Assembly: GCA_017433375.1 (NCBI GenBank)
Contig: JAFRHG010000030.1
Location: forward strand, 1-64,000
Length of the DNA stretch: 64,000 nt
Source: Bacillota bacterium
GTDB taxonomy: Bacteria > Bacillota > Clostridia > Peptostreptococcales > Anaerovoracaceae
Direction: 5' to 3'
Numbering within the stretch: position 1 is the stretch's first letter; each line of letters starts with the position of its first letter. Of this stretch, positions 282-63,963 are shown piece by piece. A program made the translations under genes and the position numbers. The notes below the pieces were generated by a model, which searched no databases, was not told the DNA's origin, and worked only from the letters and a program-made list of their open reading frames with translations.

Positions 282-1433
282 ATGGTAAACGAAGGGACTT
301 TTCATATCGGGCCGATCCGGCCGCCCAGTGAAGCGGCGAGCCTTCTGATCCAGGTGACCAGGGGATGCACGTGGAATAAGTGCAAATTCTGTAATCTGTA
401 CCGGCACACCCGGTTCAAGGCCTACAGCGCGGACAGCGTGAAGCGGGATATCGATGTGATCGCCGCCTATGCGGAGGAGATAGAGGAATACCGTGACGGC
501 GCCGGATGGGATCTGGACGGCCTGAACGGGAGGCTGCAGCGCTTTCGGGATGACGAGGCGAGGCAGTGCTTTTATATGGTCGCCCAGTGGCTGATCGACG
601 GCGGTGAGAACGTGTTTTTGCAGGACGGCAACACCACGGTACTCAGCAGCGGCAGGCTCTCGGAGGTCCTGGTCTACCTGAAACAGGTTTTTCCTCAGAT
701 TAAGCGGATCACCTCCTACGGACGGGCGGAGGAACTGTCCAGTCACAGTGCGGAGTACTACGCGGAGCTGAAGGAGGCCGGCCTCGACCGGATCCATTCC
801 GGTTTTGAAACGGGGTCCGACAGGGTCCTGGCCATGATCAACAAAGGGACCACCGCAGAGCATGAGATCACCGCGGGAAGGAACGTGCGGGCCGGCGGCA
901 TCGAGCTGAGCGTGTACTTCATGCCGGGTGTCGGCGGCAGGGAACTATCCGGGGAGAATGCCGAGGGAACAGCCCGCGTGCTCAATGCGGTGAATCCGGA
1001 TTTCATCCGGGTGAGGACCGCGGCGGTTAAGCCGGGGACGGAGCTCTATGAGGATTTCCGTCAGGGAGAGTATTGCCTTTGCGGCGACGACGATAAGGCC
1101 CGGGAGATCCGCCGGGTGATCGAGCTGGCGGAGGGCGTTACCACCCAGCTGGTCAGCGATCATATGGTCAATCTGCTGCAGGATATCAACGGGAACCTGG
1201 GATCGGAGAGGGACCGGAGGAAGATGACTGCGCGGATCGATCAGTATCTGGGAATGCCGGAGGCGGACCGCAGGGTGTTTCAGCTGCTGCGCAGGACGCT
1301 GCGGGCCTATGATCTGGATGATCTGGCGCAGCTGACAGCGGAGCAGAGGGAGCAGCTGCGCGAAGCGGTCCGGGAGGAGCCGGAAGCGCGGTGGGATGAA
1401 AAGATGAACGGGTACATCAGCCGATTTATCTGA
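282..1433 (+). CDS. Radical SAM protein, unknown substrate
   Basis: This 383-residue protein carries the cluster motif CTWNKCKFC with cysteines at residues 29, 34 and 37 (CX4CX2C). That variant is seen in COG1032-like radical SAM proteins with TRGCxWNxCxFC. A [4Fe-4S] cluster and SAM radical chemistry are expected from the family. No B12-binding domain precedes the core, and an accessory C-terminal region follows. The ATG has a good SD about 10 nt upstream (ggaggac), and a TATAAT hexamer lies at 230-235 with a weak -35. The cupin gene starts 13 nt after the stop, suggesting a two-gene operon. The substrate is not predictable. The protein contains one copy of the dispersed 10-mer, read as Cys-Leu-Cys. 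Confidence 0.85.
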   Translation: MVNEGTFHIGPIRPPSEAASLLIQVTRGCTWNKCKFCNLYRHTRFKAYSADSVKRDIDVIAAYAEEIEEYRDGAGWDLDGLNGRLQRFRDDEARQCFYMVAQWLIDGGENVFLQDGNTTVLSSGRLSEVLVYLKQVFPQIKRITSYGRAEELSSHSAEYYAELKEAGLDRIHSGFETGSDRVLAMINKGTTAEHEITAGRNVRAGGIELSVYFMPGVGGRELSGENAEGTARVLNAVNPDFIRVRTAAVKPGTELYEDFRQGEYCLCGDDDKAREIRRVIELAEGVTTQLVSDHMVNLLQDINGNLGSERDRRKMTARIDQYLGMPEADRRVFQLLRRTLRAYDLDDLAQLTAEQREQLREAVREEPEARWDEKMNGYISRFI

Positions 1434-1446
1434 AGGAGGACAGAGT

Positions 1447-1806
1447 ATGGGAAACGAGAAACCGAAGACAGGCCAGACCTGGGTGATGCACGAGGATGTG
1501 CTGGCGGAGAAGATGCCGACATGGACGAAGCGCCGCATCCTGGCCCATGGCGAGCAGATGATGATGGTGGAAAACGAGTTCGCGCCGGGTGATACCGCTC
1601 CAGAACACGAGCATTACCACGCGCAGATCACCTACGTGATCGACGGCGCGCTGGAGTTTACCGTGGACGGGGAGACAAGAGTACTGAGAAAGGGCGATTC
1701 CACATTCATCGCTCCCCACGCCGTGCACCGGGCGATTGCTCTGGAGGACACGCTGATCATCGATATGTTCGCGCCTATGCGGGAGGATTTTTTGACACAA
1801 CCTTGA
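1447..1806 (+). CDS. Small cupin-domain protein
   Basis: A 119-residue single-domain cupin. The metal motif is visible as H54-x-H56-x3-Q60 and H94, placed as in cupin_2 proteins, so a divalent metal site is likely. Such proteins act as small dioxygenases, isomerases or sugar/ligand sensors, and nothing here separates these. The start ATG has SD aaggaggaca. It follows the radical SAM gene by 13 nt and is probably cotranscribed with it. The two may act on one substrate, but that is inference from adjacency only. Confidence 0.8.
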   Translation: MGNEKPKTGQTWVMHEDVLAEKMPTWTKRRILAHGEQMMMVENEFAPGDTAPEHEHYHAQITYVIDGALEFTVDGETRVLRKGDSTFIAPHAVHRAIALEDTLIIDMFAPMREDFLTQP

Positions 1807-1817
1807 AATGGAATATA

Positions 1818-1846
1818 TTGACAATTATGGAATGCTATGACATAAT
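1818..1846 (+). promoter_or_regulatory. Sigma-A-type promoter
   Basis: TTGACA (1818-1823), a 17-nt spacer, then CATAAT (1841-1846). It lies just after the cupin stop and fires into a structured intergenic segment ahead of the GTPase gene. Confidence 0.6.
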
Positions 1847-1847
1847 A

Positions 1848-4865: not shown

Positions 4866-4931
4866 ATTGCCTTTGCCCCTATCATGGAATCACAGGATAA
4901 CCATACGAGATAATAAAAGGAGGAAAAGACA

Positions 4932-5585: not shown

Positions 5586-5683
5586 AAAGGCAGCCAATCG
5601 GACTTTAAGGCGGGGATAGTGTCTGCTAAAATAGGAAGGGAAAGGAATGGGTGGAATTGCCTTTGGGGCAGAAGGAAAGGGAT

Positions 5684-6623: not shown

Positions 6624-7697
6624 ATGACCTACAGGGTGCTGACCATCAACCCGGGATCCACATCGACGAAGATCGCCGTTTTTGAAGACGAGCGGGAGGT
6701 CCTTGATCAGACGCTGCGGCACAGCGCGGAGGAGCTGGGCCGGTACGAAAGCATTGCCGCCCAGGAGGACTTCCGCCGCCAGCTGGTGCTGGACGCCCTG
6801 GCGGAAAACGGCATGACCGCGGGAGACCTTGACGCCATCGGCTGCCGGGGCGGGCTGATCCGTCCCATTCCCAGCGGCACCTACCGGGTGAACGAGACCA
6901 TGGTGGAGGACTGCCGCCGGGGCGTGCAGGGAGAACACGCCAGCAATCTGGGCGCGCTGATCGGATACGGCATGGGAAAGGAAGCCGGCGTTCCGGTCTT
7001 TATCGTAGATCCGCCTTCGGTGGATGAACTGTCGGATGTGGCCCGGATCTCGGGACACCCCCTGATCCGGCGGACCTGCATCTTCCACGCCCTGAACCAG
7101 AAGGCCGTGGCCCGGCAGTTTGCCAAAGAGGCGGGCCGGTCCTATGAGGAGATGAACCTGGTGGTCTGCCATATGGGCGGCGGGATCACCGTGGGCGCCC
7201 ACGTGGGCGGCCGGGTGGTGGACACCCAGAATGCGGTGGGCGGCGAAGGTCCCTTCACGCCGGGACGTTCCGGCGGGCTGCCGGCCATCGACGTCATCCG
7301 CCTTTGCTTCGACGGGGAGCATACCCGTGAGGAACTGGAGGAATACCTGACCAGCCGGGGCGGGCTGATCGCCTATACCGGGACCAGCAGCATGCGGGAG
7401 ATCCAGAAGCGGGCCAAGGAGGAACCGGAGATCCGGCTGCTCCTGGACGCCCTCCTCTATCAGATCGCCCGAGAGATCGGCGCCGCGGCCGCGGCCATGA
7501 AGGGGAAGGTTGACCAGATCATCCTCACCGGCGGCATCGCCAACAGCGAGGAACTGATGAGTGAGCTGCGGGAGCAGGTGGAATGGATCGCGCCGGTCAC
7601 CGTTTATCCCGGCGAGGAGGAAATGCAATCCCTTGCCTTCGGTGTGCTTCGCGTGCTGCGGGGCGAGGAAGAGGCGAAGGAATACGCGGAGGAGTGA
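6624..7697 (+). CDS. buk: Butyrate kinase
   Basis: A 357-residue ASKHA-fold acetate/butyrate kinase with the phosphate-binding start LTINPGSTSTKIAVF, HMGGGITVGAH, the loop GGEGPFTPGRSGGLP and the late nucleotide-binding LTGGIANS. Length and motifs fit butyrate kinase better than the longer acetate kinase. It converts butyryl phosphate and ADP to butyrate and ATP, or acts on branched-chain acyl phosphates. No phosphotransbutyrylase gene lies beside it in this window. The SD is aggagg. topB starts 7 nt downstream. Confidence 0.9.
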   Translation: MTYRVLTINPGSTSTKIAVFEDEREVLDQTLRHSAEELGRYESIAAQEDFRRQLVLDALAENGMTAGDLDAIGCRGGLIRPIPSGTYRVNETMVEDCRRGVQGEHASNLGALIGYGMGKEAGVPVFIVDPPSVDELSDVARISGHPLIRRTCIFHALNQKAVARQFAKEAGRSYEEMNLVVCHMGGGITVGAHVGGRVVDTQNAVGGEGPFTPGRSGGLPAIDVIRLCFDGEHTREELEEYLTSRGGLIAYTGTSSMREIQKRAKEEPEIRLLLDALLYQIAREIGAAAAAMKGKVDQIILTGGIANSEELMSELREQVEWIAPVTVYPGEEEMQSLAFGVLRVLRGEEEAKEYAEE

Positions 7698-7704
7698 GCC
7701 GCCG

Positions 7705-9915
7705 ATGAAACTGATTATCGCGGAAAAGCCCTCCCTGGGCCGGTCCATCATGGATTCCCTGGGAGAGAAATTCGAAAACCACGAGGAGTACTATAGTTCG
7801 GAGAACTATTATGTGTTGCCTTTGCACGGGCATATCCTGGAACTGAAGGACTTCGAGGAGTACCCGGAGAACAAAGGCAAGTCCATGTGGAGCGTGAAGA
7901 ACCTGCCTTTTTTTCCCGGGGAGTACGAGTACAACATTTCCCGTGGGAACAAGAAGACCTACGACTGCATCCGGAAGCTGCTGAAGCAGCCCGAGGTGAC
8001 GGAGGTGATCCACTGCGGGGACGCGGACCGGGAAGGGCAGATCATCGTGGACCTGGTGCTGGAGAAGATCGGCAACACGAAGCCGGTGAGCCGGCCCTTC
8101 ATCAAATCCACGACGAGGGAAGGGCTCCAGAAGGCTTTCGCCGAGCGGCGCCCCAACGAGGAGTACCGGAACATCAACGCCGAGGGGAAGACCCGGGAGT
8201 ACGTGGATTTTGATTTCGGCAAGAACCTGTCCCGGTACGCCAGCAGGAAGGCGGGGGCGCGTTCCGGCCTGAATGTGGGGCGGGTCATCGGGGCTATCGT
8301 CACAGAGATCTATAACCGGGACCTGGAGATCGAGAACTTCGTGCCCCGGAATTATTTTAAAGTGGAGTCCGACGGCGAGATCAAGCTGACGTCGAAACAG
8401 GAGTTTGAAGGGGCCCAGGAGGAGGCGGCGAAGGAATACGCCCGCCGGCTGAACGAGTCCGACCTGCGGGTCACCGACGTGAAGAAGGCGAAGCAGACCA
8501 AGCGCGCCCCCAGGTTGTTTTCCCAGACGGATCTGCAGGGGGCGGCGAACAAGCGGCACGGCTTCGCGCCGAAGCGGACCCTGCGGGCAGCCCAGTCCCT
8601 CTACGAGAAGGGGCTCATCACCTATCCCCGGACGAACACGAACTACATGGCGGAGGGGGACCGGCCCATGATCGCCGGGATCCTGAAAAAGCTCGGCCCG
8701 GAATTCGAGATGAAGCGGGTCTTCGATGACAGCAAGGTGGACGGCCACTCGGCCATCACCCCCACGGGGAAACACCCGGAGCTCACCGGAGACGAGCATA
8801 AGATCTATATGATGATCCTGAACCGGTTCCGGGCGGTGTTCTGCAAGGAAGCCTGCACGGTGCTGAAGACCACCCTGACCATCGACAGCAGGGATCCCCG
8901 CACGGGGGAATGCATCGAGCAGTTCAAGGTCAGCGGCGAGGTGCCCCTGACCCAGGGATGGAAGAAGTTCGAGCCGGTGTCGGAGCAGGAGACGGTGCTG
9001 CCGGAGCTGAATGCGGGAGATCCGGTGGAGCATGACTTCCAGCCGGTGGCGGCCCAGACGAAGCCGCCGGCCCACTACACGGTGACGACCCTGGGCAAGT
9101 GGATGCAGAATCCTTTCCGCAAGTCGGAGGAGGACGAGGTGGACTACGCCAGGATGCTCTCCGGCATGGAGATCGGCACCGAGGCCACCCGGGCGGCGAT
9201 CATCGACAAGGCCATCGCCAAGGACTACATCAAGCTGACGAAGAACACCTACACCATCCAGCCCAACGGCCGCTTCCTGGTGGAAAGCTGCCGGGTGCTG
9301 GGCATCGATATGTCCAGCGTGAAGACGGCGGAAATGGGCAGGGACACCAAGGCGGTATCCCGGGGAGAAAAGACCTGTGAAGAGGTGCTGGCGGCGGTCC
9401 GCAAGGAGATCACCGACATCATCGGCAGCGCCCCGGCCGGCCCCGTGGACGCGCCCCAGCCGACGGAGTTCACCTGTCCCCGCTGCGGCAAAAAACTGCA
9501 GGGCACCCTGAAGAAACTTGAGTGCGAATGCGGTTTCGTCTTCTGGAAAACCGTCGCCGGCAAGTGGCTGGACGATGAGGCCATCGCCGCGCTCCTCGCC
9601 GGAAAGAAGACGAAGCTTCTCCGCGGATTCAAGAGCAAGGCAGGGAAATCATTCTCCGCCTACCTGGAGATGAAGCCCGACGGCGGAGTTGCCTTTGCCT
9701 TCCCGGAAAAACCGGAAAAGGTCTCCCTGGGCAACTGCCCCAAGTGCGGCAAGCCGGTCTACGAAAACAAGAAGGGCTTCGGCTGTTCCGGCTGGAAGCC
9801 CGGAGGCAAGGGCTGCGACTTCATCATCTGGAAGTACGACAGGGCCACGAAAAAAAAGACCACCGCCGAGCAGGTGAAAAAGATGCTGGCGGAGGGAGGC
9901 CCGGAAGAGGGCTGA
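7705..9915 (+). CDS. topB: DNA topoisomerase III (type IA)
   Basis: A 736-residue type IA topoisomerase. The Toprim domain has E7 (IIAEKPS) and GDADRE (D106, D108). The active-site tyrosine is Y307 in GLITYPRT. The C-terminus has a ribbon CPRCGKKLQ...CECGF and a second CPKCGKP... module. It relaxes or decatenates single-strand-containing DNA. The frame is open further upstream, but ATG 7705 is the canonical MKLIIAEKPS start with ggaggag upstream. Three copies of the dispersed motif lie within the gene (7816, 7872 and 9689), read as LPL, KGK and VAFA. Confidence 0.93.
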   Translation: MKLIIAEKPSLGRSIMDSLGEKFENHEEYYSSENYYVLPLHGHILELKDFEEYPENKGKSMWSVKNLPFFPGEYEYNISRGNKKTYDCIRKLLKQPEVTEVIHCGDADREGQIIVDLVLEKIGNTKPVSRPFIKSTTREGLQKAFAERRPNEEYRNINAEGKTREYVDFDFGKNLSRYASRKAGARSGLNVGRVIGAIVTEIYNRDLEIENFVPRNYFKVESDGEIKLTSKQEFEGAQEEAAKEYARRLNESDLRVTDVKKAKQTKRAPRLFSQTDLQGAANKRHGFAPKRTLRAAQSLYEKGLITYPRTNTNYMAEGDRPMIAGILKKLGPEFEMKRVFDDSKVDGHSAITPTGKHPELTGDEHKIYMMILNRFRAVFCKEACTVLKTTLTIDSRDPRTGECIEQFKVSGEVPLTQGWKKFEPVSEQETVLPELNAGDPVEHDFQPVAAQTKPPAHYTVTTLGKWMQNPFRKSEEDEVDYARMLSGMEIGTEATRAAIIDKAIAKDYIKLTKNTYTIQPNGRFLVESCRVLGIDMSSVKTAEMGRDTKAVSRGEKTCEEVLAAVRKEITDIIGSAPAGPVDAPQPTEFTCPRCGKKLQGTLKKLECECGFVFWKTVAGKWLDDEAIAALLAGKKTKLLRGFKSKAGKSFSAYLEMKPDGGVAFAFPEKPEKVSLGNCPKCGKPVYENKKGFGCSGWKPGGKGCDFIIWKYDRATKKKTTAEQVKKMLAEGGPEEG

Positions 9916-10523: not shown

Positions 10524-11105
10524 TCAGGGCCTCAGCCCAGGTGGTGAGTAGTTGACTTGCTCTCCGTCTTCGAAGGCCTTGCCCACAACTTCTCCCAAAA
10601 TGTTGTAGTTATGATTCATGCCGTCGTAGACGATGGGCTTCAGTTTCGCCAGATCGATGGCGCCCTCGGTCAGGACGCTTTCGTCGGCGGAAACATTGAC
10701 GATTTTACCGATCATGATGTGAGTGTCCGCATCATAGCTGACCATTTCACACTCCAAAGCCACGGGATACTGGTCGACCAGCGGCGCGTCCACATATTCG
10801 CTCTTCACGGCGGTGAAGCCGGCCCGTGCAAACTTGTCGGGAACGTCATTCGCCGAGACGATGCCCACATAGTCGGAAGCGACAACCAGATCTGCTGTGG
10901 CAAAGGCAACGGTAAAAGCCTTTTTCACCAGTATGTTTTTCACGGTCTTGTGCCCCGGGCTGATGCACATGGAAATCTGATTCACGCCGGAGATGCCTCC
11001 CCATGCGGCGTTCATGATATCCGGCACACCGTTCTCGTCGTATGCGGCGATCATCAATACCGGCTCCGGGGTAATAAAGGAATTGGGTCCAAAATTCTTT
11101 CTCAT
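10524..11105 (-). CDS. Flavin reductase / flavoredoxin family protein
   Basis: A 193-residue FMN-binding split-barrel protein. It begins MRKNFGPNSFITPEPVLMIAAYDENGVPDIMNAAWGG, typical of flavoredoxin-like proteins in anaerobes, with SPGHKTVKNI and GKIVNVSADESV further on. It probably reduces or carries FMN for electron transfer or detoxification. The last residues (NYSPPGLRP) differ from the usual short end, suggesting the 3' end was altered by the rearrangement that left the GNAT fragment. One dispersed 10-mer copy lies inside (10900), read as VAFA on the coding strand. Confidence 0.85.
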   Translation of the reverse strand: MRKNFGPNSFITPEPVLMIAAYDENGVPDIMNAAWGGISGVNQISMCISPGHKTVKNILVKKAFTVAFATADLVVASDYVGIVSANDVPDKFARAGFTAVKSEYVDAPLVDQYPVALECEMVSYDADTHIMIGKIVNVSADESVLTEGAIDLAKLKPIVYDGMNHNYNILGEVVGKAFEDGEQVNYSPPGLRP

Positions 11106-11259: not shown

Positions 11260-11289
11260 TTGCTTTTGCATACCCGGCAAGGGTATACT
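11260..11289 (+). promoter_or_regulatory. Promoter of the OPT transporter gene
   Basis: TTGCTT (11260-11265), 18-nt spacer, TATACT (11284-11289). The -35 coincides with TTGCTTTTGC, a one-base variant of the dispersed 10-mer. Confidence 0.5.
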
Positions 11290-13240: not shown

Positions 13241-13679
13241 CCCGGACGAAAACTATCTGGAGTTCGTCTACCGGCGGAATCCGGAAGTGCACTGGATCGT
13301 TGAGCCCAGCGAGGACGACTATGGCGAAGAGGAATCCGGCGACGGGTCCGCGGTCGCTGAGTCCGGCGACGTGTCCGCGGTCGCTGAATCCGGCGACGGG
13401 CCCGCCGGCTGCGGCAGGGATCTGGTGATCCTCCATGTGCGGCGCCGGGGACTGGGCCACACCATCGCCCAGAAGGTGTTCGGCAAGCCGGAGATCGGCC
13501 ACATCCACCTGGAGCCCATGGGAAGCTTTATCTGGAAACAGATCGACGGGCGGCGGTCAGTTTACGACATCGGATTGCTTTTGCGGGAGGAGTTCGGCGA
13601 CGAGGCGGAGCCCCTCTTCGAGCGGCTGGCCATGTACATGAAAAACCTGGACGCCCAGGGGTACATCATCAGAGTGTAA
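13227..13679 (+). CDS. PqqD-like peptide-binding protein with an internal 9-residue repeat
   Basis: A 150-residue protein. Residues about 75-150 (VFGKPEIGHIHLEPMGSFIWKQIDGRRSVYDI ... LDAQGYIIRV) match the PqqD fold, a winged helix-like domain that binds precursor peptides in RiPP pathways. The N-terminal part contains a 27-bp tandem repeat (13332-13406) encoding ESGDGSAVA-like units. It overlaps the OPT gene by 14 nt. No radical SAM maturase or precursor peptide gene adjoins, so a role in handling an imported peptide is more likely than classic RiPP biosynthesis. That is inference. Confidence 0.75.
   Translation: MSRNNPDENYLEFVYRRNPEVHWIVEPSEDDYGEEESGDGSAVAESGDVSAVAESGDGPAGCGRDLVILHVRRRGLGHTIAQKVFGKPEIGHIHLEPMGSFIWKQIDGRRSVYDIGLLLREEFGDEAEPLFERLAMYMKNLDAQGYIIRV
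13332..13406 (+). repeat. 27-bp in-frame tandem repeat, about 2.8 copies
   Basis: Copies start at 13332, 13359 and 13386. Each encodes the nine-residue unit ESGDxSAVA, with the last copy partial. It lies inside the PqqD-like gene and would vary in copy number without frameshift. Confidence 0.85.
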
Positions 13680-14352: not shown

Positions 14353-14503
14353 AATGGTCGATGAGCCGGCAAAAGGACCGTCGGAAAAGCAATCAGAGAA
14401 TCGGCACTTTCGGGGTTGCCTTTGCTGATATCAGACTTCCAACGGGAACCCGGGCGTTGTATAATAATAACCTAAGATGTAATCGGTTGTGGGAGAACGA
14501 AAC

Positions 14504-16198: not shown

Positions 16199-16232
16199 CC
16201 GGAGGCAATCGGAAGAGAAGAGGATCCTGAGC

Positions 16233-23858: not shown

Positions 23859-23865
23859 AAGCAGA

Positions 23866-40808: not shown

Positions 40809-40915
40809 CACACAGACCAGAGCGGCCTGAGCGGCATTGCCTTTGCACCCGCCTCCGGCACTACAACAACAGAAACTAACGGGCGCGGCCCGGGAAAAGA
40901 GGAAAAGACGATAAT

Positions 40916-50348: not shown

Positions 50349-50357
50349 GGAACAGGA

Positions 50358-52394: not shown

Positions 52395-53452
52395 TACTGC
52401 CAACGGGAAAACTGGACAGCGATCTGCTGAAGGAGATCGTGTTCGAACAGATCACATACCGCAGCGATGAGGTCAGGGTGCGGCCGGGCATCGGCGAGGA
52501 CTGCGCGGTGCTCGACTTCGGGGAGTATGACTGCGTCATGTCGACGGACCCCATCACCTCGGCGGTCAGCGACATCGGCCGCCTGTCGATCCACATCACC
52601 TGCAACGACATCGCCTCCAACGGCGTGCAGCCCCTGGGCATCATGCTGGCGGTCATGCTGCCGGAGGGAACCACCGATGAAGACGTGGCCCACATCATGG
52701 GCCAGGCGGCGGAGACGGCGGCGTCCCTGTCCGTGGAGATCATCGGCGGCCATACGGAGATCACGCCGGCGGTCCGCCAGCCGGTGATCGTGTCGACGGC
52801 CCTGGGAAAGACCCTGGCGGGATCGTCCCAGAGCGGCGATGACATGGAGCCCGGCGACTGGATCATGATGACCAAGTCGGCAGGGCTGGAAGGATGCGGC
52901 ATTATCGCCTCGGACTACGAGGAACGCCTGCTGGCGGAAAAGGATGAGCAGGGCAAGCCTCTGTTTTCTCCGGAGGAGATCGCCCGGGCCAGATCCTTCC
53001 TGGATCAGGTCAGCGTCGTCCGGGAAGGGGTAACCGCCGGACGGATCGGCACCCACGGCATGCATGACATCACTGAGGGCGGCATTCTGGGAGCGGTCTG
53101 GGAGATGTGCCAGATCGCCGGGACCGGCGCGGAGATCTGGGAAGAGAGGATACCTATGGAGCCGGAGACGGTGAAGATCTGCCGGCTTTTCGGCCTGGAT
53201 CCCCTGCGGCTGATCTCCAGCGGATCCATGGTGATCATCGTGCCGGATGAACAGCGGCAGCAGATGCTGGCGGCCATGGCGGAAGCCGATGTGCCCGCTG
53301 CCGTCATCGGTCGGGTGTGCCCGAAGGCGGAGGGCATACGCCTCATGACAAAGACAAAAACCTGCGGGGCGGAAGGCGAGGGACGCATCAGCGTCACCGT
53401 CGACCCGCCGCGCATGGATGAAATTTACCGTGTCGTCAGCCGGACGGTCTGA
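52391..53452 (+). CDS. PurM-like AIR-synthase family protein (HypE/ThiL-like)
   Basis: A 353-residue protein with the AIR synthase fold: GIGEDCAVLDFGEYDCVMSTDPITSAVSDIGRLSIHITCNDIASNGVQPLGIML and GMHDITEGGILGAVWEM. It resembles HypE and related ATP-dependent enzymes but lacks the C-terminal cysteine that receives the carbamoyl group in HypE. Its substrate is unknown. ATG 52391 overlaps the ligA stop (ATGA), so it is the third gene of the operon. Confidence 0.8.
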   Translation: MILPTGKLDSDLLKEIVFEQITYRSDEVRVRPGIGEDCAVLDFGEYDCVMSTDPITSAVSDIGRLSIHITCNDIASNGVQPLGIMLAVMLPEGTTDEDVAHIMGQAAETAASLSVEIIGGHTEITPAVRQPVIVSTALGKTLAGSSQSGDDMEPGDWIMMTKSAGLEGCGIIASDYEERLLAEKDEQGKPLFSPEEIARARSFLDQVSVVREGVTAGRIGTHGMHDITEGGILGAVWEMCQIAGTGAEIWEERIPMEPETVKICRLFGLDPLRLISSGSMVIIVPDEQRQQMLAAMAEADVPAAVIGRVCPKAEGIRLMTKTKTCGAEGEGRISVTVDPPRMDEIYRVVSRTV

Positions 53453-53492: not shown

Positions 53493-54479
53493 ATGGATTC
53501 TAATTTGCTGATGTTACTGGCGGTTCTGCCGGGTATTCTGATCATCATTTACGTGTACCGTAAGGACAAGGTGGAAAAGGAGCCCTGGCGCCTGATTGGA
53601 AAACTGGTCTTTTTCGGGATGCTGTCCTGCATTCCGGCGGCCTTCATGGAAAGCTTCATCGACGGCCTGATGCCGTCATGGCCTCAGGGCAGCCTGGCTT
53701 ACGCACTGTCCATGGCCTTCGTATCGGCGGCCCTCTGTGAGGAACTGTTCAAATACCTGTTCCTTCGCATAGGCTCCTGGAACAATCCCAATTTCGGATA
53801 CCGCTTCGACGGCATCGTCTACGGCGTTTCGGTAGCCGTTGGCTTTGCCATTCTGGAGAATATTCTGTACGTGTCCCAGGGCGACCTGACCGTGGCCCTC
53901 ATGCGGGGCGTGCTGGCGGTGCCTCTCCATGCCTTCTGCGGTGTGTTCATGGGCGTGTTCTTCGGCGCGGCGAAAAAGGCCCAGATCGAAGGGCGCGGAT
54001 CCGGGAAGCTGACCTTCCTGGCCCTGTTTGTGCCCATGATGATCCACGGCACCTACGACACGATGGCCTTCATGGGCGACAGCGTGGCCACCGTGCTGCT
54101 GCTTGCCTTTGTGCTGGCCATGTACATCGTCTCCATCCGCTGCATCCGCAGATACTCCATGGATGACGCCAGTTCGGCCTTCTATCCGGACATGGATGCC
54201 TTCCCCGGCCAGGGCGGCTACACCAGCTACGGCGCCGGGCAGGGCGGCGGATTTGACGCCGGCCAGAATGCCGGGTTCGGCAGGGGAAGCGGCGGCTACG
54301 TCTACGGACCCCGGGGAACACAGACCAGCGGACAGCGGCCCCATCCTGGTCAGGTCAGCGATGGCAAGATCGTTCTGATCTGCCCCCACTGCCGCCGTGG
54401 ACTGCGGGTACCGGTGGGCGCGGGACGGATCCGCATCACCTGCCCCCACTGCGGAAGGGAATTCAACGAAATCACCTGA
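53493..54479 (+). CDS. PrsW-family intramembrane protease with C-terminal zinc ribbon
   Basis: A 328-residue protein. The PrsW motifs are visible: EE in SAALCEELFKYLFLRIG, FAILENILY, HAFCGVF and HGTYDT, within about seven helices. A Gly/Gln-rich linker (about 240-290) leads to a zinc ribbon, CPHCRRGLRVPVGAGRIRITCPHCGREF. PrsW proteases cleave anti-sigma factors. The extra ribbon is uncommon and may bind substrate or nucleic acid. The SD caaaggag lies ahead of the start. Confidence 0.85.
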   Translation: MDSNLLMLLAVLPGILIIIYVYRKDKVEKEPWRLIGKLVFFGMLSCIPAAFMESFIDGLMPSWPQGSLAYALSMAFVSAALCEELFKYLFLRIGSWNNPNFGYRFDGIVYGVSVAVGFAILENILYVSQGDLTVALMRGVLAVPLHAFCGVFMGVFFGAAKKAQIEGRGSGKLTFLALFVPMMIHGTYDTMAFMGDSVATVLLLAFVLAMYIVSIRCIRRYSMDDASSAFYPDMDAFPGQGGYTSYGAGQGGGFDAGQNAGFGRGSGGYVYGPRGTQTSGQRPHPGQVSDGKIVLICPHCRRGLRVPVGAGRIRITCPHCGREFNEIT

Positions 54480-54571: not shown

Positions 54572-54733
54572 GCGTGAATTGCCCTTTGATGGTTCCGCAT
54601 GCATGGTTTGGGTCCTGCGCAATAGGACGCCGTGAACCTTGTCAGGTCCGGAAGGAAGCAGCAATAAGCGGAAGCTCTTATGTGCCGCAGATCAGCCTTC
54701 TCCAACGCCTGCGGAGCTTTCAAAGGGCAGTTT
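54572..54733 (+). ncRNA. ffs: Signal recognition particle RNA
   Basis: The conserved SRP domain is clear: GTGAACC, GTCAGGTCCGGAAGGAAGCAG with the GGAA tetraloop, and the AGCA asymmetric bulge. The ends pair: GCCCTTTGA (54581-54589) with TCAAAGGGC (54720-54728). A T-run follows. The size (about 160 nt) exceeds E. coli 4.5S RNA but lacks room for a full Bacillus Alu domain. It targets membrane proteins with Ffh. dnaX starts 87 nt downstream; the same SRP RNA-dnaX order is known in Firmicutes. Confidence 0.92.
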
Positions 54734-54819
54734 TTCTGCCACAGAGGCCGGCGCGGCTAAGCCGCCTGATCAGGGAGGCGGCCGCCAGAAGCCAGTACGA
54801 ATTACAGAGGATAATCGGA

Positions 54820-56484
54820 ATGTATACGGCGCTTTACCGGGTATACCGCCCGGAAGTATTTGATCAGCTGCTGGGTCAGGAGCACATCGTCAGGATTCTG
54901 AAGAATCAGATCGCTGCCGAAAGCACCAGCCACGCCTACCTGTTCTGCGGCACACGGGGAACGGGAAAGACGACGACGGCAAGGCTTCTGGCCAAGGGCC
55001 TGAATTGCCTTTCCGACGGGGAACGCCCCTGCGGGGAGTGCAGCGCCTGCCGGGCCATCCGGGACGGCAGCTTTCTTGACGTGATCGAGATCGACGCGGC
55101 GTCCAACCGGGGCATTGACGAGATCCGCGAACTGCGGGAAAGCGTCAACTATCCGCCGGTCATGGGCCGGAAGAAGGTCTACATCATCGACGAAGTGCAC
55201 ATGATGACGCCGGAAGCGTTCAACGCTCTGCTGAAGACGCTGGAAGAGCCGCCGGAATACGTCACGTTTATTCTGGCGACCACGGAGGTCCGCAAACTTC
55301 CGGCGACGATCCTGTCCCGGTGCATGCGCCTGGATTTCAAACGGATTCCGGAGCAGACCATCATGGCCGGCATGAAGAAGATCTGTCAGGACATCGGCAT
55401 CGATGTGACGGACAGCGCTCTGCGGATCATCGCGGCCAACGCCGACGGTTCGGTGCGCGACGGCCTGAGCATTCTGGACCAGTGCATCGCCGGCGGAGAG
55501 AAGACGGTGGACGGACCGGACGTGCTGGAGTTTCTCGGCGCGTCGGGGGAGGAGGTCTTCGTGGACCTGACGGATCTGGTCACCAAAGGCCGGACCGCGG
55601 AAGCCCTTCAGTATCTGGCGGAGGTTCTGGCGGACGGAAAAGATGTGCGCCAGCTGATCCGCGACTGGATCAACCATTACCGGAATCTGCTGATGACCAA
55701 GTACATTCGGGATCCCCGGGAGGTCATCAATCTGTCGGTGGAGAACATCGACCGGATCCGCAGCCAGAGTGCGGTCATGGAGCCCGAAGACATCAACCGG
55801 GGCATTCTGGAATTGTCGAAGACCATGAATGAGGCCCGGTGGTCGACCCAGCCCAGGATCCTGCTGGAGTTGTGTATCGTGGTTCTGTGCCGACAGACGG
55901 GCGCCTTCCGTGCGCCGGTGACGGCGGATGCAAAGGCAGCCCCTGCGCCGGCGGCAAGGCCCGAGGCAAAGGCAACGCCTGCGCCGGCGGCACCGCAGCC
56001 AGTACCGGAACCCGAACCGACAGAAGTAGCCGAACAGACACCCCCAGCAGCAGCACCGGCCGAAGCGGTGCCCGAACCGGCACCCGAACCGGAGCCCCAG
56101 AGGAAAGCGCAGCCCGAGCCCGCGGACAAACCCGAACCGGCAGCACCGGCGCCCGCAGCCCCGGCAGAAGAAGAACTGCTCGCCCTGTGGGACGACATCT
56201 TTACGGCGGGGGCGGCCAGCAAGGGGAGCATGCACCTGATCCGCAGCAACACCATGCTGACGGCTTTGGATGAGAACACCTTCACCGTGACCGTGCCCGA
56301 GGGTATGATGCGCCGGCACACGGAAAACAACCGGGGCATGCTGGAGGACCTGATGGAGAAGCGGACCGGCGTGCGCCGGGTCATGCAGGTGGAAGTGTCC
56401 CATAATAAGAAGAAGGAAATATCCGCCGAGGAGGCGGCGGCCAACGCGGCCAAGGTGCTCGGCACGAACGTGGAGCTCCGGTAG
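54820..56484 (+). CDS. dnaX: DNA polymerase III subunits gamma/tau
   Basis: A 554-residue clamp loader protein: MYTALYRVYRPEVFDQLLGQEHIVRILKNQI, Walker A GTRGTGKTTTARLLAKGLNC, zinc finger CGECSAC, DEVHMMT and the SRC motif (ILSRCMRLDF). A Pro/Ala/Glu-rich linker (about 365-450) precedes a tau-like C-terminal domain. ATG 54820 is the family start; the frame runs open upstream through the SRP RNA. The dispersed motif occurs twice in the linker, once exact (55966) and once as a near-match (55930). Confidence 0.95.
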   Translation: MYTALYRVYRPEVFDQLLGQEHIVRILKNQIAAESTSHAYLFCGTRGTGKTTTARLLAKGLNCLSDGERPCGECSACRAIRDGSFLDVIEIDAASNRGIDEIRELRESVNYPPVMGRKKVYIIDEVHMMTPEAFNALLKTLEEPPEYVTFILATTEVRKLPATILSRCMRLDFKRIPEQTIMAGMKKICQDIGIDVTDSALRIIAANADGSVRDGLSILDQCIAGGEKTVDGPDVLEFLGASGEEVFVDLTDLVTKGRTAEALQYLAEVLADGKDVRQLIRDWINHYRNLLMTKYIRDPREVINLSVENIDRIRSQSAVMEPEDINRGILELSKTMNEARWSTQPRILLELCIVVLCRQTGAFRAPVTADAKAAPAPAARPEAKATPAPAAPQPVPEPEPTEVAEQTPPAAAPAEAVPEPAPEPEPQRKAQPEPADKPEPAAPAPAAPAEEELLALWDDIFTAGAASKGSMHLIRSNTMLTALDENTFTVTVPEGMMRRHTENNRGMLEDLMEKRTGVRRVMQVEVSHNKKKEISAEEAAANAAKVLGTNVELR

Positions 56485-57723: not shown

Positions 57724-59334
57724 ATGGACGAAGAGAAAAGGGCAGCTGTGGTTGCCGACGAATCTCAGGATCTAAAGCGTGGTATCGCCGAATGGCAGGT
57801 CGCGTTTATCGGACTTGGCGGCGTTATCGGATCCTGCTACTTCCTGGGCGTAGGCTGGGACATCGAGGTTATGGGTCCTGGCGTGTTCTGGGCGTTCCTG
57901 CTCGTAGGCGTCATCGTTTTCGGACTGATGATCTCCTACGCGGAACTGCTGGTCAACCTGCCCCGTTCCGGATCATTTATCGCCTACACCAATGAGTTCC
58001 TTGGACCAACGGTCTCCACGGGATTCGGCTGGGCGTTCTGGTTCAACTGGGTATGCTATGTACCGTCCGAAGCCATCGCGGTATCGGCGGCACTGCAGGC
58101 CATTACCGGCATCACCAGCACGGTAGCCTACATCGCCTTCGCGGTAGGCACCATGATGGCGCTGACACTGATCAACTGCTTCGCGGTAGATATCTTCGCG
58201 AAGATCGAGTCGGGCCTGGCCATCACGAAAGTTATCATCATCGTCATGTTCATCCTGGTTGGCCTGGGTATCTGGGTCGGCTTCTGGGGCAGCCCCCAGG
58301 GCGAGCTGACGGCGTACAACATCACCGAAGGATTCAAGGGTGCCGGCATCAACTTCAAGCCTGAACTCAGTCTCTTCGAGAACTGGTTCCCGCATGGCAT
58401 TCTGATCATCTCGGTCATGATGGTCGTCGTACTGGTCACCATGCAGGGTACGGAAATCGTCGGTCTGGCGGCAGCGGAGTCGAAGAATCCGGAAGTCGCG
58501 GTACCGAAAGCCTGCCGGAGCGTCGTCTATCGTATCGTCGCTCTGTACCTGGCACCGATCCTGCTGGTCATCCTGATTTACCCCACGGCGCTGGCGGACG
58601 ATGCCACACCGGTATTTGCGGAGGTAGCGAGAGACTATGGTTTGACGCCATTCTTCTACATCTTCTGCGCGGTAGTTATGGTCGCGGCGTTCTCCTGTGG
58701 TAACACGGGATTCTATGGAACGGTCCGTGCCATGTACGGCCTGTCCACCGAGGGCCTGGCGCCCAAGTTCCTCAGCCGCCTGTCCAAGAACCAGGCACCG
58801 AGAAACGCGGTATTCTTCACCATGGCCTTCATGTGGCTGGTGCTGATCACCGGTCTCATTTCCGAGGTTACCGGCGCGCTGTCCGACCTGTACGGCTCCC
58901 TGCTGTGCATGTCCGGCTTCACCGGCACACTGGCCTGGGTAGGTATCATCGCCGCCCAGAAGAGGATGCGCATGAGACTGAAGCAAAACGGATACGATCC
59001 GGAGAAGGTCCTGAAGGCCAAGGTGCCCAAGCCGATGGCATGGATCCCCTGGTTCGCTCTGATCGCGCAGATCATCTGCCTGATCATGCTTGCCTTTGCG
59101 ACGCCTGTTGAAAAGGCATACATCGCGAGCATGGAGGCCAAGGGTCTGGAACCCGACATCGCAGTCGGCGACACCGGCGGCGGCCTGATCATCTTCATCA
59201 TCGCCACATCGGCTATCGTGATCCCGATGATCGTTTATCAGATCATGAACAAGATGGGCAAGGTCGGCCATATCGCCACCCTGCACGGCGACGAGAAGAC
59301 CTTCGAGGAAGCCTTCCCGCCGATCAACAAGTAA
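57724..59334 (+). CDS. APC-superfamily amino acid permease
   Basis: A 536-residue protein with about 12 hydrophobic helices. The N-terminal APC signature is IAEWQVAFIGLGGVIGSCYFLGVGWDIEVMGPGVFWAFLL. A further block is MQGTEIVGLAAAESKNPEVAVPKACRSVVYRI. The substrate may be an amino acid (GerKA-like or lysine/arginine type permeases share this layout), but this is unresolved. It has its own promoter, SD aggagg, and a terminator. Confidence 0.9.
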   Translation: MDEEKRAAVVADESQDLKRGIAEWQVAFIGLGGVIGSCYFLGVGWDIEVMGPGVFWAFLLVGVIVFGLMISYAELLVNLPRSGSFIAYTNEFLGPTVSTGFGWAFWFNWVCYVPSEAIAVSAALQAITGITSTVAYIAFAVGTMMALTLINCFAVDIFAKIESGLAITKVIIIVMFILVGLGIWVGFWGSPQGELTAYNITEGFKGAGINFKPELSLFENWFPHGILIISVMMVVVLVTMQGTEIVGLAAAESKNPEVAVPKACRSVVYRIVALYLAPILLVILIYPTALADDATPVFAEVARDYGLTPFFYIFCAVVMVAAFSCGNTGFYGTVRAMYGLSTEGLAPKFLSRLSKNQAPRNAVFFTMAFMWLVLITGLISEVTGALSDLYGSLLCMSGFTGTLAWVGIIAAQKRMRMRLKQNGYDPEKVLKAKVPKPMAWIPWFALIAQIICLIMLAFATPVEKAYIASMEAKGLEPDIAVGDTGGGLIIFIIATSAIVIPMIVYQIMNKMGKVGHIATLHGDEKTFEEAFPPINK

Positions 59335-59423: not shown

Positions 59424-59478
59424 ACACCGGCCGGGGGCAAAGGCAATCCCGGCGTGGGGCCAAAGAGAGAGGTAACCC

Positions 59479-60003: not shown

Positions 60004-61809
60004 ATGAGTCAGGCGCAGACCGCAGTGGCTCAGACCGGTGATCACGGCTTGAAAAAGCATGAGATCAAGGTCTCCACTGTCGTATTCATGATCTTCTGCC
60101 TGGTCGCAGCAGGATGCTATGGTATCGAGGAAATGATCCCGGAATGCGGTCCGGGACTGACCCTCATCATGCTGTGCGTACTCCCGTTTGTGTGGGGACT
60201 TCCCTTCGGACTGGTTGCGTCCGAGCTGGGTTCGGTCCGGCCGCAGGAGGGCGGCTACTACAAATGGGTGCAGGAGGCCCTGGGCGAGTTCTGGGGATTC
60301 CAGGCAGGCTGGTGGAGAACCATCTCCATCTACATTGACAACACCTCTTACGTAATTCTGGCCGGAGGCTACGCGGCCACAGCATGGGATATGGGAATCG
60401 TCGGCGAATTCGCGCTGAAGTTCTGCATGATCGGCATCTTCACCCTGATCAACATCCGGGGCGTCAAAGACGTCGGCTGGGTCAGCACGGTGCTGTCCAT
60501 CCTGGTCATGGTTGCCTTTGGCATCGTGGCCCTCTGCGGATTCCTCAACTGGGGCGGAGACGCGATGACGGCGGATACGATTTCCTTCCGGATCACGCCG
60601 GAACCGGCCGAGGGCATTTCCGACTGGTTCTTCTACATCGCCGGCGGCATCTCCATCGGTATGTGGATGTACTCCGGTTACGAGTCCATGTCCACCATCG
60701 CCGGCGAGGTTGCCAACCCGCAGGTCATCCCCAAGGGAACGCTGGTGACCATTCCGCTGATCATGGCGGTCTACATCCTGCCGACCACCGCGGGCCTGGG
60801 CTCCCTGGGCCAGTGGGACAACTGGGGAACGGAACCCGGAACCGTCGGCTACGCCGATGTGGTCTCCCACTTCTGGGGACCGGCCTGGGGCATCATCTTC
60901 GTCATCGTGGCGATCCTGGCACAGTGCTCCATCTACAATACGTATATAGCTTCGGGATCCAGAGGGTTCTTCGCCCTGGCGGATGACAATCTGACCCCGC
61001 CGATCATGGTCCGGGTGGACAAGAAGTTCGGCGTGCCCTATGTGGCGGTTCTGTCCGTGGGCATCTTCAACCTGATCTTCTGCATGTTCCCCTTCGGATT
61101 CATCATCGTTCTGGATGTGGCCCTGCTGCTGGCATCCTACGTCATGGTCTACATTTCGGCCATAATCCTGCGTCGCCGGATCCCCAGGGAAGAATACGTC
61201 TTCCGGATTCCGGGAGGCGACGGCTTCCTGAAGGTGCTGTGCATCGTACCGATCTGCGTAGCCATCTTCGCCTTCTTCGTCAACGGTTCCGACTACTATA
61301 CCGGCGGCATGGTCGGTATCCTGACCGGACCGATCCTCTACTTCATCTGGAGACGGATGTACGGCGGACTGACGAAGAAAGACCCCGTAGCCTTCGTGGG
61401 CAACCCGAAAACGGGCCTGGCCGTGGGCGATACCCGCAGGATCTCCTTCCTGCTGCTGATCGTCACCATCATGAATATCGTGGCGCTGATCTTCGAGCCC
61501 TGGTATGAGGGCTGGGGCACCGAGGACGCCTGGGAGTCCGGCGACTACTTCGACGGCATCCTGGAAGCGGTCAACGTGGACGTCATCGTCGGCGTGATCA
61601 CCATCGTGCTGTGGGTCATGACCGTCGTCTGCGCCATCGCATGCATCGTTCTCTATCTGCTTTCCAAGAAGGTGGAGCCTTCCGTCGAGGAGTGCAGAGC
61701 GGCCTTTAAGAAGAGCTGCGACGCCATCTCCGCCAGACACAACAAGGAGCTGGTCGAGATGAACGAGGCACAGGGAATCGTGACTAATGCAAAGGCAACG
61801 GATGAATAG
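60004..61809 (+). CDS. APC-superfamily amino acid permease
   Basis: A 601-residue protein with about 12-14 hydrophobic helices: HEIKVSTVVFMIFCLVAAGCYGIEEMIPECGPGLTLIMLC and GYYKWVQEALGEFWGFQAGWWRTISIYIDNTSYVILA. The layout is close to poly- or amino acid permeases with long C-terminal tails (61650-61809, KKVEPSVEECRAAFKKSCDAISAR). It is about 65 residues longer than the first permease and diverged from it. A dispersed 10-mer copy at the 3' end encodes NAKATDE. The SD is aaaggagg. Confidence 0.9.
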   Translation: MSQAQTAVAQTGDHGLKKHEIKVSTVVFMIFCLVAAGCYGIEEMIPECGPGLTLIMLCVLPFVWGLPFGLVASELGSVRPQEGGYYKWVQEALGEFWGFQAGWWRTISIYIDNTSYVILAGGYAATAWDMGIVGEFALKFCMIGIFTLINIRGVKDVGWVSTVLSILVMVAFGIVALCGFLNWGGDAMTADTISFRITPEPAEGISDWFFYIAGGISIGMWMYSGYESMSTIAGEVANPQVIPKGTLVTIPLIMAVYILPTTAGLGSLGQWDNWGTEPGTVGYADVVSHFWGPAWGIIFVIVAILAQCSIYNTYIASGSRGFFALADDNLTPPIMVRVDKKFGVPYVAVLSVGIFNLIFCMFPFGFIIVLDVALLLASYVMVYISAIILRRRIPREEYVFRIPGGDGFLKVLCIVPICVAIFAFFVNGSDYYTGGMVGILTGPILYFIWRRMYGGLTKKDPVAFVGNPKTGLAVGDTRRISFLLLIVTIMNIVALIFEPWYEGWGTEDAWESGDYFDGILEAVNVDVIVGVITIVLWVMTVVCAIACIVLYLLSKKVEPSVEECRAAFKKSCDAISARHNKELVEMNEAQGIVTNAKATDE

Positions 61810-61845
61810 AAAAATTTTCCAGTAACCAACGGTCACAGACACAGG

Positions 61846-61886
61846 CTGCTGCCGGGCGGGGAAACCTGCCGGGCAGCAGTTTTTTC
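61846..61886 (+). terminator. Intrinsic terminator of the second permease
   Basis: CTGCTGCC (near 61846) pairs with GGCAGCAG, with an inner CCCGGC / GCCGGG-like stem, and six T residues follow. Confidence 0.85.
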
Positions 61887-61955
61887 ATGGTGCGACTTTC
61901 TTGCGGATTAGTTTGCCGACAGGGAGGATGATTTGGTATGTATTTTGTTTCGTAC

Positions 61956-61985
61956 TTGATTATTCCAGGGGAATGCGATTATAAT
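61956..61985 (+). promoter_or_regulatory. Promoter of the Ech/complex I-like operon
   Basis: TTGATT (61956-61961), 18 nt, TATAAT (61980-61985), 49 nt before the ATG. Confidence 0.7.
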
Positions 61986-62034
61986 ATCGTGTAACGGTAT
62001 TTTTTGAGTAAAGCTTTATTATTAGGAGGATTAA

Positions 62035-63963
62035 ATGGGCACAATTACATTCCTGATTATTTTCCCGATGATAATTGCCTTTGTTCTTCTGGCGGCAAGA
62101 AGCGATAAAGCGCGGGACATGATCGTCTATATCGCCACAGCGGTGATCGCTGCGGGATCGATCGTCTGCGCGATTCAGTACTTCGGCTCCGCAGGGGAGT
62201 ATTTCCCCGTCCACGGAGAGGTCGTTGGATACCTGATGATGGCTATCGAGATCGGACTCGCGGTGTACATCATCTATACGGGTATCAAACACAAGAAGTA
62301 CCTGGCTTCGCTGCTGGCGCTCGTCCAGACACCACTGATGATCTGGTTCGAGCTATCACACGGTCATGAGATCGAAGTACAGTATAATATGTACATAGAC
62401 AGACTTTCGGTCATCATGATCCTGATCATCGGCATCATCGGCAGCCTGATCTGCGTTTACGCGCTGGGCTACATGAAAGACTTTCAGCATCATCACGCGG
62501 GTGAGAAGGACAGAAGACCCTGGTTCTTCTTCGTTATGTTCCTTTTCCTGGGAGCGATGGTCGGTCTGGTCACATCCAACAACATGATCTGGATGTACTT
62601 CTTCTGGGAGATCACCAGCCTGTCTTCCTTCTGGCTCATCGGATACACCAGAACAGGGGAAGCGATCAACAACAGCTTCCGCGCCCTGATCATGAACCTG
62701 CTCGGCGGACTCGGCTTCGTCATCGGCATCATCATTCTGGGCACCATCTTCGGTACGCTGGAACTGAGCACCATGCTCGTCTACGGTTCCATCTACGGAG
62801 ACCTGGTGGCGATCCCGGCGGCGTTCTTCGCCTTCGCGGGAATCACCAAAGCGGCGCAGATGCCGTTCAACAGCTGGCTCCTTGGCGCGATGGTCGCACC
62901 GACACCTACATCGGCGCTGCTCCATTCGTCCACCATGGTTAAGGCCGGCGTCTTCATGATCATCAAGCTGGCCCCCGTACTGGGCATCTCCAACTTCGCG
63001 GGACTGATGGTCATGATGGTCGGAGGAATCACTTTCCTCTTCGCCTCCTGCGCGGCGATTTCACAGAACAACGCCAAACGGGTGCTGGCCTACTCGACCA
63101 TAGCCAACCTGGGCCTGATCGTCGCCTGCGGCGGCGTGGGAACACCGGAAGCGGTATGGGCCGGCATCATGCTGATCATCTTCCACGCGATCACCAAGTC
63201 TCTGCTGTTCCTCTGCGTAGGTACCGCGGAGCACCACATCGGAAGCCGGATGATCGAGGACATGGACGGACTGTTCGTCAGAATGCCCAAAGTGGCCATG
63301 TTCATGATCATCGGTATCGCTGGCATGTTCCTGGCTCCCTTCGGAATGCTGATTTCCAAGTGGGCGACCATGACATCCTTTGTCGATTCCGGAAACTTCA
63401 TCCTGGTCGGCATCATCTGCTTCGGCAGTGCGGTAACCGCTTTCTACTGGCTCAAGTGGATGGGCAAGCTCTCCGCGGTCGTAGCCAATGAAGAGAACGT
63501 CGAGCAGAGCGTGCACAAGAGCGAGACCTTCGTCCATGTGACGCTGACCATCCTGACGGTCGTTGTCTGCCTCATCTTCCCGCTGATCTCCATGTACGGA
63601 CTGGTTCCCTACCTGGAAGGCGTATTCGGCGGAATTGCCACCGGCCTGCTGTCCTCCAGCAACATGATCATCATGGTCATCATGCTGGCGGTTCTGGTCC
63701 TTCTGGCTGCCATGTTCTTCGGCAAGTCGAAGAAGGAGCAGGTGCCGATCTATCTGGCCGGCGTCAACAAGGGCGACAACCGGACCTACTACGGCTCCAT
63801 GCAGAAGGAAGTGCAGTTCTCCCTGCGTAACTGGCATATGGAGAGCATCTTCGGTGAGCATCGAATGAACGTGATCGGCGACGTCCTTACCGTAGCCTGC
63901 CTGGTGATCGGAATCGGCGCTGTCATCGCGACGCTGATCAGTCTGTTAGGAGGTGTTGCATAA
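62035..63963 (+). CDS. NuoL/EchA-like proton-translocating membrane subunit
   Basis: A 642-residue polytopic protein of the NuoL/MrpA/HyfB antiporter-like family. The conserved core contains FWEITSLSSFWLIGY (TM5 glutamate), PFNSWLLGAMVAPTPTSALLHSSTMVKAGVFMI (lysine-bearing helix) and KRVLAYSTIANLGLIVA. It has a C-terminal tail near 595-642. The next gene, a NuoH-like subunit, overlaps the stop (TAATG), indicating an energy-converting hydrogenase (Ech/Mbh) or related complex. It probably couples ferredoxin oxidation to proton or sodium export. The SD is aggagg. Confidence 0.88.
   Translation: MGTITFLIIFPMIIAFVLLAARSDKARDMIVYIATAVIAAGSIVCAIQYFGSAGEYFPVHGEVVGYLMMAIEIGLAVYIIYTGIKHKKYLASLLALVQTPLMIWFELSHGHEIEVQYNMYIDRLSVIMILIIGIIGSLICVYALGYMKDFQHHHAGEKDRRPWFFFVMFLFLGAMVGLVTSNNMIWMYFFWEITSLSSFWLIGYTRTGEAINNSFRALIMNLLGGLGFVIGIIILGTIFGTLELSTMLVYGSIYGDLVAIPAAFFAFAGITKAAQMPFNSWLLGAMVAPTPTSALLHSSTMVKAGVFMIIKLAPVLGISNFAGLMVMMVGGITFLFASCAAISQNNAKRVLAYSTIANLGLIVACGGVGTPEAVWAGIMLIIFHAITKSLLFLCVGTAEHHIGSRMIEDMDGLFVRMPKVAMFMIIGIAGMFLAPFGMLISKWATMTSFVDSGNFILVGIICFGSAVTAFYWLKWMGKLSAVVANEENVEQSVHKSETFVHVTLTILTVVVCLIFPLISMYGLVPYLEGVFGGIATGLLSSSNMIIMVIMLAVLVLLAAMFFGKSKKEQVPIYLAGVNKGDNRTYYGSMQKEVQFSLRNWHMESIFGEHRMNVIGDVLTVACLVIGIGAVIATLISLLGGVA

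Follow-up and report, generated by a model that had tools for sequence, protein, structure and literature searches.

A clade-specific repeated 10-mer with lineage dialects as a candidate DNA uptake sequence in Clostridia

The stretch of DNA analyzed here, 64,000 nucleotides from the start of contig JAFRHG010000030.1 (assembly GCA_017433375.1, a Bacillota bacterium of the class Clostridia), carries many dispersed copies of one short word, the 10-mer GCAAAGGCAA. The whole stretch is called the window below. The over-representation of this word is real and extends genome-wide. Based on computational evidence, we consider it likely that GCAAAGGCAA serves natural transformation as a DNA uptake sequence, one that arose separately in Bacillota. 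This reading draws on the enrichment of the word, its symmetry between strands, a single origin on gene trees, dialects that differ between clades, the conservation of individual sites and the presence of several competence genes.

An earlier note, made from the sequence of the window alone, had reported 26 exact copies of GCAAAGGCAA, 16 on the forward and 10 on the reverse strand, and a recount gave the same figures. The mean over 100 dinucleotide shuffles of the window was 0.09 copies, with a maximum of one, and an order-3 Markov model predicts 0.08. GCAAAGGCAA ranks first among all 10-mers of the window and most of the other top-ranking 9- and 10-mers overlap it. The embedded 9-mer CAAAGGCAA occurs 35 times, including nine occurrences outside any copy of GCAAAGGCAA, and a pyrimidine directly follows the 10-mer on its 3' side in 22 of the 26 copies; both counts agree with those first made, the latter when taken from the site list. 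The last 9-mer, at 62075-62083, explains where the note had set the end of the motif-bearing region. The host assembly (G000; 1,953,975 bases in 38 contigs, 89% complete) contains 517 exact copies, 260 forward and 257 reverse, compared with 9 copies of the reversed word used as a control. The density is thus one copy per 3.8 kb genome-wide and one per 2.5 kb in the window, which is about 1.5 times denser. The over-representation is not confined to the window and the genome-wide total is far from chance, but the projection of about a thousand copies, made on the condition that the density held, exceeds the number of exact 10-mers roughly twofold.

The strongest evidence comes from relatives of the host. 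Its LigA protein is matched at 68% or more by nine named loci. They come from metagenome assemblies labelled Clostridiales or Bacillota, three of the nine from goat gut, and it is from this placement that the host is taken to be Gram-positive. Three forms of the word, with 3' ends AA, TG and AG, were counted in the 49 genomes of the genus. The core GCAAAGGC is kept across subclades while the 3' end varies, being AA in the host and TG, AA/AG or relaxed elsewhere. Counts for AA, TG and AG are 517, 7 and 14 in the host, 15, 864 and 21 in G065, 8, 556 and 65 in G010, 213, 39 and 270 in G019, and 8, 17 and 4 in G022. In a sample of 247 genomes of the order, GCAAAGGC reaches 340 per Mb in the host, with 664 copies compared with 192 for the reversed 8-mer. 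The highest density found outside the genus is that of G270, where 318 copies in 1.9 Mb compare with 263 of the reversal.

A LigA tree covers 46 of these genomes, no LigA match having been obtained for G011, G017 and G032; some of its rows are partial. It separates 31 genomes with 66-400 words per Mb, the three forms summed, from 15 genomes with 13-34, at a Shimodaira-Hasegawa-like approximate likelihood ratio test (SH-aLRT) value of 100, and motif presence corresponds to one state change. A ComEC tree of 32 genomes gives the same split, 24 motif-bearing against 8 motif-less genomes (SH-aLRT 99). The 31 motif-bearing genomes were sorted by hand into dialect classes comprising 3 AA, 5 TG, 16 AA-plus-AG and 7 weak genomes; G069, classed as TG, has more AG than TG words. 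Two of the genomes that are weak by 10-mer count, G012 and G029, are nevertheless rich in GCAAAGGC with an unfixed 3' end (13 copies over 22.9 kb in the former, 9 over 12.7 kb in the latter).

Individual sites are conserved between relatives. In a codon alignment of 46 ligA genes, some of them partial, GCAAARGC occurs 55 times in the 31 motif-bearing genes and three times in the 15 motif-less ones. One antisense column reads GCAAAGGCTG in all five TG-clade genomes, at another the 8-mer is common to 11 genomes, nine of which have it as GCAAAGGCAG, and a further column ends in AG in G069 and in TG in G065 and G010. When the members of six pairs of related genomes are compared, they agree at 27 of 64 motif positions and at 909 of 5163 other composition-matched 10-mers (Fisher P = 8e-6, an approximate value because overlapping 10-mers are not independent). 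These six come from a set of nine pairs; of the other three, two involve G006 again and one is a motif-less pair in which no site occurs. G070 and G006 kept 4 of 10 sites, and G019 and G006 kept 4 of 11 (both genomes counted), against 0.09 and 0.07 for random 10-mers. A set of dialects with a shared core, largely tracking phylogeny, and the conservation of sites lend independent, computational support to the uptake role that the earlier note had proposed.

The anatomy of the word was determined on a host sample of 447,717 bases, consisting of the window and 20 further stretches with 118 exact copies of GCAAAGGCAA. Positions flanking the ten show no strongly fixed base, but C or T follows directly in 100 of the 118. 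Counting all one-base neighbours, as had been suggested, revealed a sharp consensus: most occur 0-9 times, apart from GCAAAAGCAA, a G-to-A change at position 6 and the commonest neighbour with 33 copies, and changes in the first two bases, which occur 12-25 times each. Together with the preference for the following base, these counts define CAAARGCAA as the core, with G favoured before it and a pyrimidine after it. It should be noted that a different word, CCAGTTCC, is also common in the host (86 copies in the 448-kb sample, 9 in L004 and 6 in L037), which may reflect codon usage. Another, GCTTGTCCA, present six times in locus L032, was considered as a second uptake-like word and dropped, as its flanks resemble, in our reading, recurring coding sequence.

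Several other explanations have to be weighed against DNA uptake. Using a simple codon-usage gene caller written for this analysis, the 118 copies in the host sample could be assigned to 47 sense, 44 antisense and 27 intergenic or gene-edge positions. That the word is a side effect of codon usage or recurring protein motifs might be suspected from the uneven frame and strand classes inside genes, which hold between 3 and 34 copies, and from the fact that GCAAAGGC outnumbers its reversal in many genomes of the order. However, 30 synonymous codon shuffles within genes left a mean of 2.3 sense and 1.1 antisense copies (maxima 6 and 4), about 3.4 against the 91 genic copies present, all six classes are occupied, the 27 remaining copies lie between genes or at their edges, and the word is missing from the sister clade. 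The synonymous shuffle rejects codon usage as the cause and we give this explanation next to no credence. An oriented chromosome signal, such as Chi in recombination or KOPS in segregation, would suit a non-palindromic word with many copies, and the earlier note had linked such a role to a replichore-biased orientation. In a sample of 494,986 bases from ten contig pieces, 68 of 130 copies lie on the plus and 62 on the minus strand, adjacent sites share their orientation in 56 of 121 pairs, and contigs of positive and negative GC skew, by which alone replichores were judged, look alike. Together with the genome-wide balance of 260 to 257, this symmetry and independence from GC skew lead us to reject an oriented signal, which is exceedingly improbable.

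A target of DNA modification or restriction, or a HIP1-like repeat left by modification and repair, would fit a short, fixed word with sharp edges, the kind read by modification enzymes, and lineage-specific changes of target are common in modification systems. On the other hand, restriction targets are usually avoided rather than enriched and modification and restriction systems usually turn over fast, whereas the word found here has a kept core, largely clade-consistent 3' ends and a single origin. HIP1 of cyanobacteria is likewise short and highly iterated, but it is a palindromic octamer, while GCAAAGGCAA is unlike its own reverse complement and exists in dialects. We therefore regard this group of explanations, including the HIP1-like repeat raised earlier, as very unlikely. 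A chromosomal site for an abundant DNA-binding protein, serving nucleoid organization, segregation or a large regulon and gained once by the clade, comes closer, since hundreds of scattered, strand-symmetric, conserved sites of single origin would suit any sequence-specific binder. This alternative is weakened by the 3' end, which differs between neighbouring clades at hundreds of sites and even within one ligA column. Further, called genes contain 91 of the 118 sites, in both orientations, which does not point to a transcription regulator. A cytoplasmic binder would also seem to offer no obvious means of converting sites in bulk, an engine that uptake combined with recombination could provide, and it is for this reason that we favour uptake and consider a binding site unlikely.

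For the favoured explanation, DNA uptake, we hypothesize that GCAAARGC, together with a 3' end particular to each lineage, is recognized by a DNA-binding protein on the cell surface. This protein would belong to the competence apparatus and most likely to a type IV pilus-like machine. After binding of the word the pilus would retract, ComEC would bring in one strand and DprA and RecA would recombine it with the chromosome. Fragments bearing the word would enter more often, so that the word could spread by biased uptake and recombination, a molecular drive acting on both strands and inside genes. A change of receptor might then drive the genome anew towards a different 3' end, giving rise to dialects. 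Cell competence, preferential uptake, the identity of the receptor and the drive itself are parts of this model that we infer. Accumulation by molecular drive is, to judge by its title, the topic of a paper in the reference list of PMC7811141.

Components of a competence apparatus could be identified in the genus. ComEC is found in 40 of the 49 genomes, including the host, whose protein lies above the ComEC/Rec2 cut-off, and DprA in 45, again including the host. ComEA exceeds its family cut-off in 43 genomes. The host also encodes a type IV pilus locus (L037:10763-18990, on contig C3) with PilA-, PilB-, PilT-, PilC- and PilM-like proteins, of which the PilT-family and prepilin-domain models of NCBIfam reach their cut-offs while PilB, PilC/GspF and PilM stay below. 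The long PilB-class ATPase of the host has strong counterparts in only 3 other genomes of the 49. A second, small operon (L055:3154-7913) encodes four small pilin-like proteins, among them a DUF4860 protein, along with a T2SSF protein and a PilT-family ATPase; a transglutaminase-like protein, probably lipid-anchored, precedes these. Its ATPase lies above the PilT-family cut-off and far under that of ComGA. The check for competence genes that had been recommended thus turned up ComEC, DprA and pilus-type genes in the host, but no ComEA above the cut-off.

The small pilus operon is conserved across the genus in distinct types. Close relatives of the host ATPase (68-76% identity) are present in 13 other genomes, all of them motif-bearing; those of the 68-70% type, in G065, G001, G010 and G009, belong to TG-dialect genomes. 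On an ATPase tree of 24 genomes the host clusters with nine others whose dialect is AA/AG or relaxed (SH-aLRT 99), and constraining it to group with three TG genomes is rejected (approximately unbiased test, p-AU 0.004), contrary to the LigA and ComEC trees, which place the host near TG genomes. A second copy of the ATPase region in G009, at 75% identity and similar to that of G019, lies on contig C27 (L148, 3,011 bases) and may be contamination.

A number of observations weigh against a role in uptake, or at least against its simplest form. ComEA above the cut-off was not found in the host, its nearest relative G034, G010, G002, G062 or G011, and the gap in the host and G034 concerns assemblies that are about 90% complete. 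ComEC, ComEA and DprA also occur in motif-less species, so that competence genes alone do not predict the word. A distant type of the small-operon ATPase (51-55% identity) is found in 6 motif-bearing and 7 motif-less genomes, and this presence in both clades rules out the operon as a strict correlate of the word. In addition, 14 of 34 motif-bearing assemblies, namely the 31 on the LigA tree plus G011, G017 and G032 as assigned by word counts, have no ATPase match at 51% or above, including G029 (98% complete) and G020 (96%). The agreement between dialect and pilus type is a lead rather than proof, since it concerns one instance and long branches were flagged by the program. The pilin-like proteins computed for the host are all acidic and one of four is basic in G065. 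Each tree was built from a single gene, and the dialect classes require six changes on the LigA tree. G033 is an exception within the motif-bearing clade: its 89 TG words are split 60 to 29 between the strands, and its sample holds only one GCAAAGGC in 25.3 kb. The host and G034 have 2 of 7 motif positions in common, against a background of 60 of 550. The very unequal frame and strand classes belong here as well, as does the spacing of the 130 sites, which is no more even than random (coefficient of variation 1.19, compared with 1.07 +- 0.10 when sites are placed at random). Inverted pairs, which are common in known uptake sequences, are rare here, with two spanning no more than 30 bases among the 130 sites, one of them a perfect palindrome.

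The uptake-sequence-like system described here for Gram-positive Clostridia is probably new, and no self-DNA tag of this kind may have preceded it in Gram-positive bacteria. Among the matches listed in a search of open-licence papers, no uptake sequence in Bacillota was found, and a paper on competence in Veillonella, also Bacillota, mentions uptake signal sequences in its reference list only. A more far-reaching scenario is possible and on balance rather doubtful: the word would be a self-DNA code of one clade of Gram-positive Clostridia, read by its competence pilus and evolved independently of Neisseria and Haemophilus, and exchange of the small operon would switch the dialect, re-drive hundreds of sites and isolate species sexually. 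If the uptake reading is true, the word would represent a third separate uptake code, and its presence in Gram-positive Clostridia would mean that self-recognition at uptake needs no outer membrane. The genus would then offer a comparative system for the origin of dialects and, because the word is missing from a sister clade, for the beginnings of such codes. It would also follow that these uncultured bacteria are naturally transformable, opening a genetic route into them.

Within the window, 12 copies of GCAAAGGCAA lie sense and 8 antisense in genes and 6 between called genes. The genes concerned include a topoisomerase, two UvrD-like helicases, a DnaX-like gene and two tRNA synthetases. Positions and strands of the exact copies are as follows.
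1073-1082, minus: antisense in a radical-SAM gene (282-1433)
4867-4876, minus: between called genes
7816-7825, minus: antisense in a bacterial topoisomerase gene (7561-9915)
9689-9698, minus: antisense in the same topoisomerase gene (7561-9915)
10900-10909, plus: antisense in a flavin-reductase-like gene (10524-11105, minus)
14416-14425, minus: between called genes
16177-16186, plus: sense in a UvrD-like helicase gene (16089-18386)
17607-17616, plus: sense in the same helicase gene (16089-18386), in a codon phase different from the copy at 16177
18826-18835, plus: sense in a GNAT gene (18383-18847)
22515-22524, plus: sense in a HAD/corrinoid adenosyltransferase gene (22113-23252)
22765-22774, plus: sense in the same gene (22113-23252), in a codon phase different from the copy at 22515
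24221-24230, plus: sense in an N-formylglutamate amidohydrolase-like gene (23794-24621)
27957-27966, plus: between called genes
29394-29403, plus: sense in an MBL-fold gene (28785-29666)
30755-30764, minus: antisense in a class II tRNA synthetase gene (30283-31725)
39032-39041, plus: sense in a PIN-domain gene (38533-39654)
40837-40846, minus: between called genes
41636-41645, plus: sense in a prolyl-tRNA-synthetase-like gene (40916-42649)
41877-41886, minus: antisense in the same synthetase gene (40916-42649)
45586-45595, plus: between called genes
49482-49491, plus: sense in a UvrD/PcrA-like helicase gene (48114-50348)
50281-50290, minus: antisense in the same helicase gene (48114-50348)
55966-55975, plus: sense in a DnaX-like gene (54574-56484)
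59090-59099, minus: antisense in an amino-acid permease gene (57724-59334)
59437-59446, plus: between called genes
61789-61798, plus: sense in an amino-acid permease gene (60004-61809)

The nine further copies of CAAAGGCAA, preceded by a different first base, are found at these positions.
5657-5665, minus
7872-7880, plus
20680-20688, minus
28333-28341, minus
31101-31109, plus
33145-33153, plus
54103-54111, minus
60512-60520, minus
62075-62083, minus

The variant GCAAAAGCAA is located at four positions.
11260-11269, minus
13575-13584, minus
25763-25772, minus
45100-45109, minus

A 1,341-codon open frame on the minus strand of the window (48378-52403), antisense to helicase and ligase genes, is probably a by-product of base composition. 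No tRNA genes were found in the window. The sample used for orientation and spacing contains nine stretches of more than 12 kb free of GCAAAGGCAA; three of them coincide at least in part with very large open frames, and another with the type IV pilus locus. That such deserts represent mobile DNA was dropped as a general claim; one of them holds housekeeping genes, among them RimM, TrmD and DivIVA. A single open frame of the host assembly, at 58572-85289 of contig C8 (within L046-L048), spans 8,906 codons without interruption, and its end resembles a membrane-anchored surface protein. Other large open frames comprise 4,535 codons on C3 and 2,804 codons on C8.

Comparison with known systems draws on excerpts of the papers cited. 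Most DNA uptake is described as sequence-independent in the excerpted text of a paper that also treats the Gram-positive competence pilus (PMC12040237). Like the competence type IV pilus of Streptococcus pneumoniae, as far as the excerpts describe it, the small operon of the host has one retraction-type ATPase, a ComGB/PilC-like membrane protein and several small pilin-like proteins (PMC12040237, PMC3694846), and ComEC and DprA are encoded elsewhere in the genome, as in S. pneumoniae competence. It differs in that a sequence code is proposed here and in that the ATPase is of the PilT family, far under the ComGA cut-off.

The DNA uptake sequence (DUS) of Neisseriaceae is read by the minor pilin ComP (PMC3630211, PMC5031613, PMC1852404, in part), and eight DUS dialects agreeing with phylogeny are described in the text drawn on (PMC3630211). 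The Clostridia word resembles DUS, to the extent covered there, in being short, non-palindromic, dispersed on both strands and clade-restricted, with core-sharing dialects that follow phylogeny. Unlike DUS, it belongs to a Bacillota host, has a sequence other than the words given in the excerpt of PMC5031613 and is present in hundreds rather than thousands of copies, and, in contrast to DUS and ComP, its uptake and receptor are at the stage of a proposal. Inverted pairs also differ, with the two close ones among 130 sites set against DUS contained in about 55% of the examined predicted terminators of Neisseria, according to the portion consulted (PMC1852404). For the uptake signal sequence (USS) of Pasteurellaceae, the predicted receptor given in the excerpt is the minor pilin PpdA/ComN (PMC12616744), and at least 600 copies are stated for Haemophilus influenzae in the passage used from a 2026 review (PMC13192263). 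The Clostridia system, with its proposed uptake, involves another word and another phylum; judged by these partial sources, its 517 copies in the host are of the same order as those of the USS, and in both cases dialects share a kept core.

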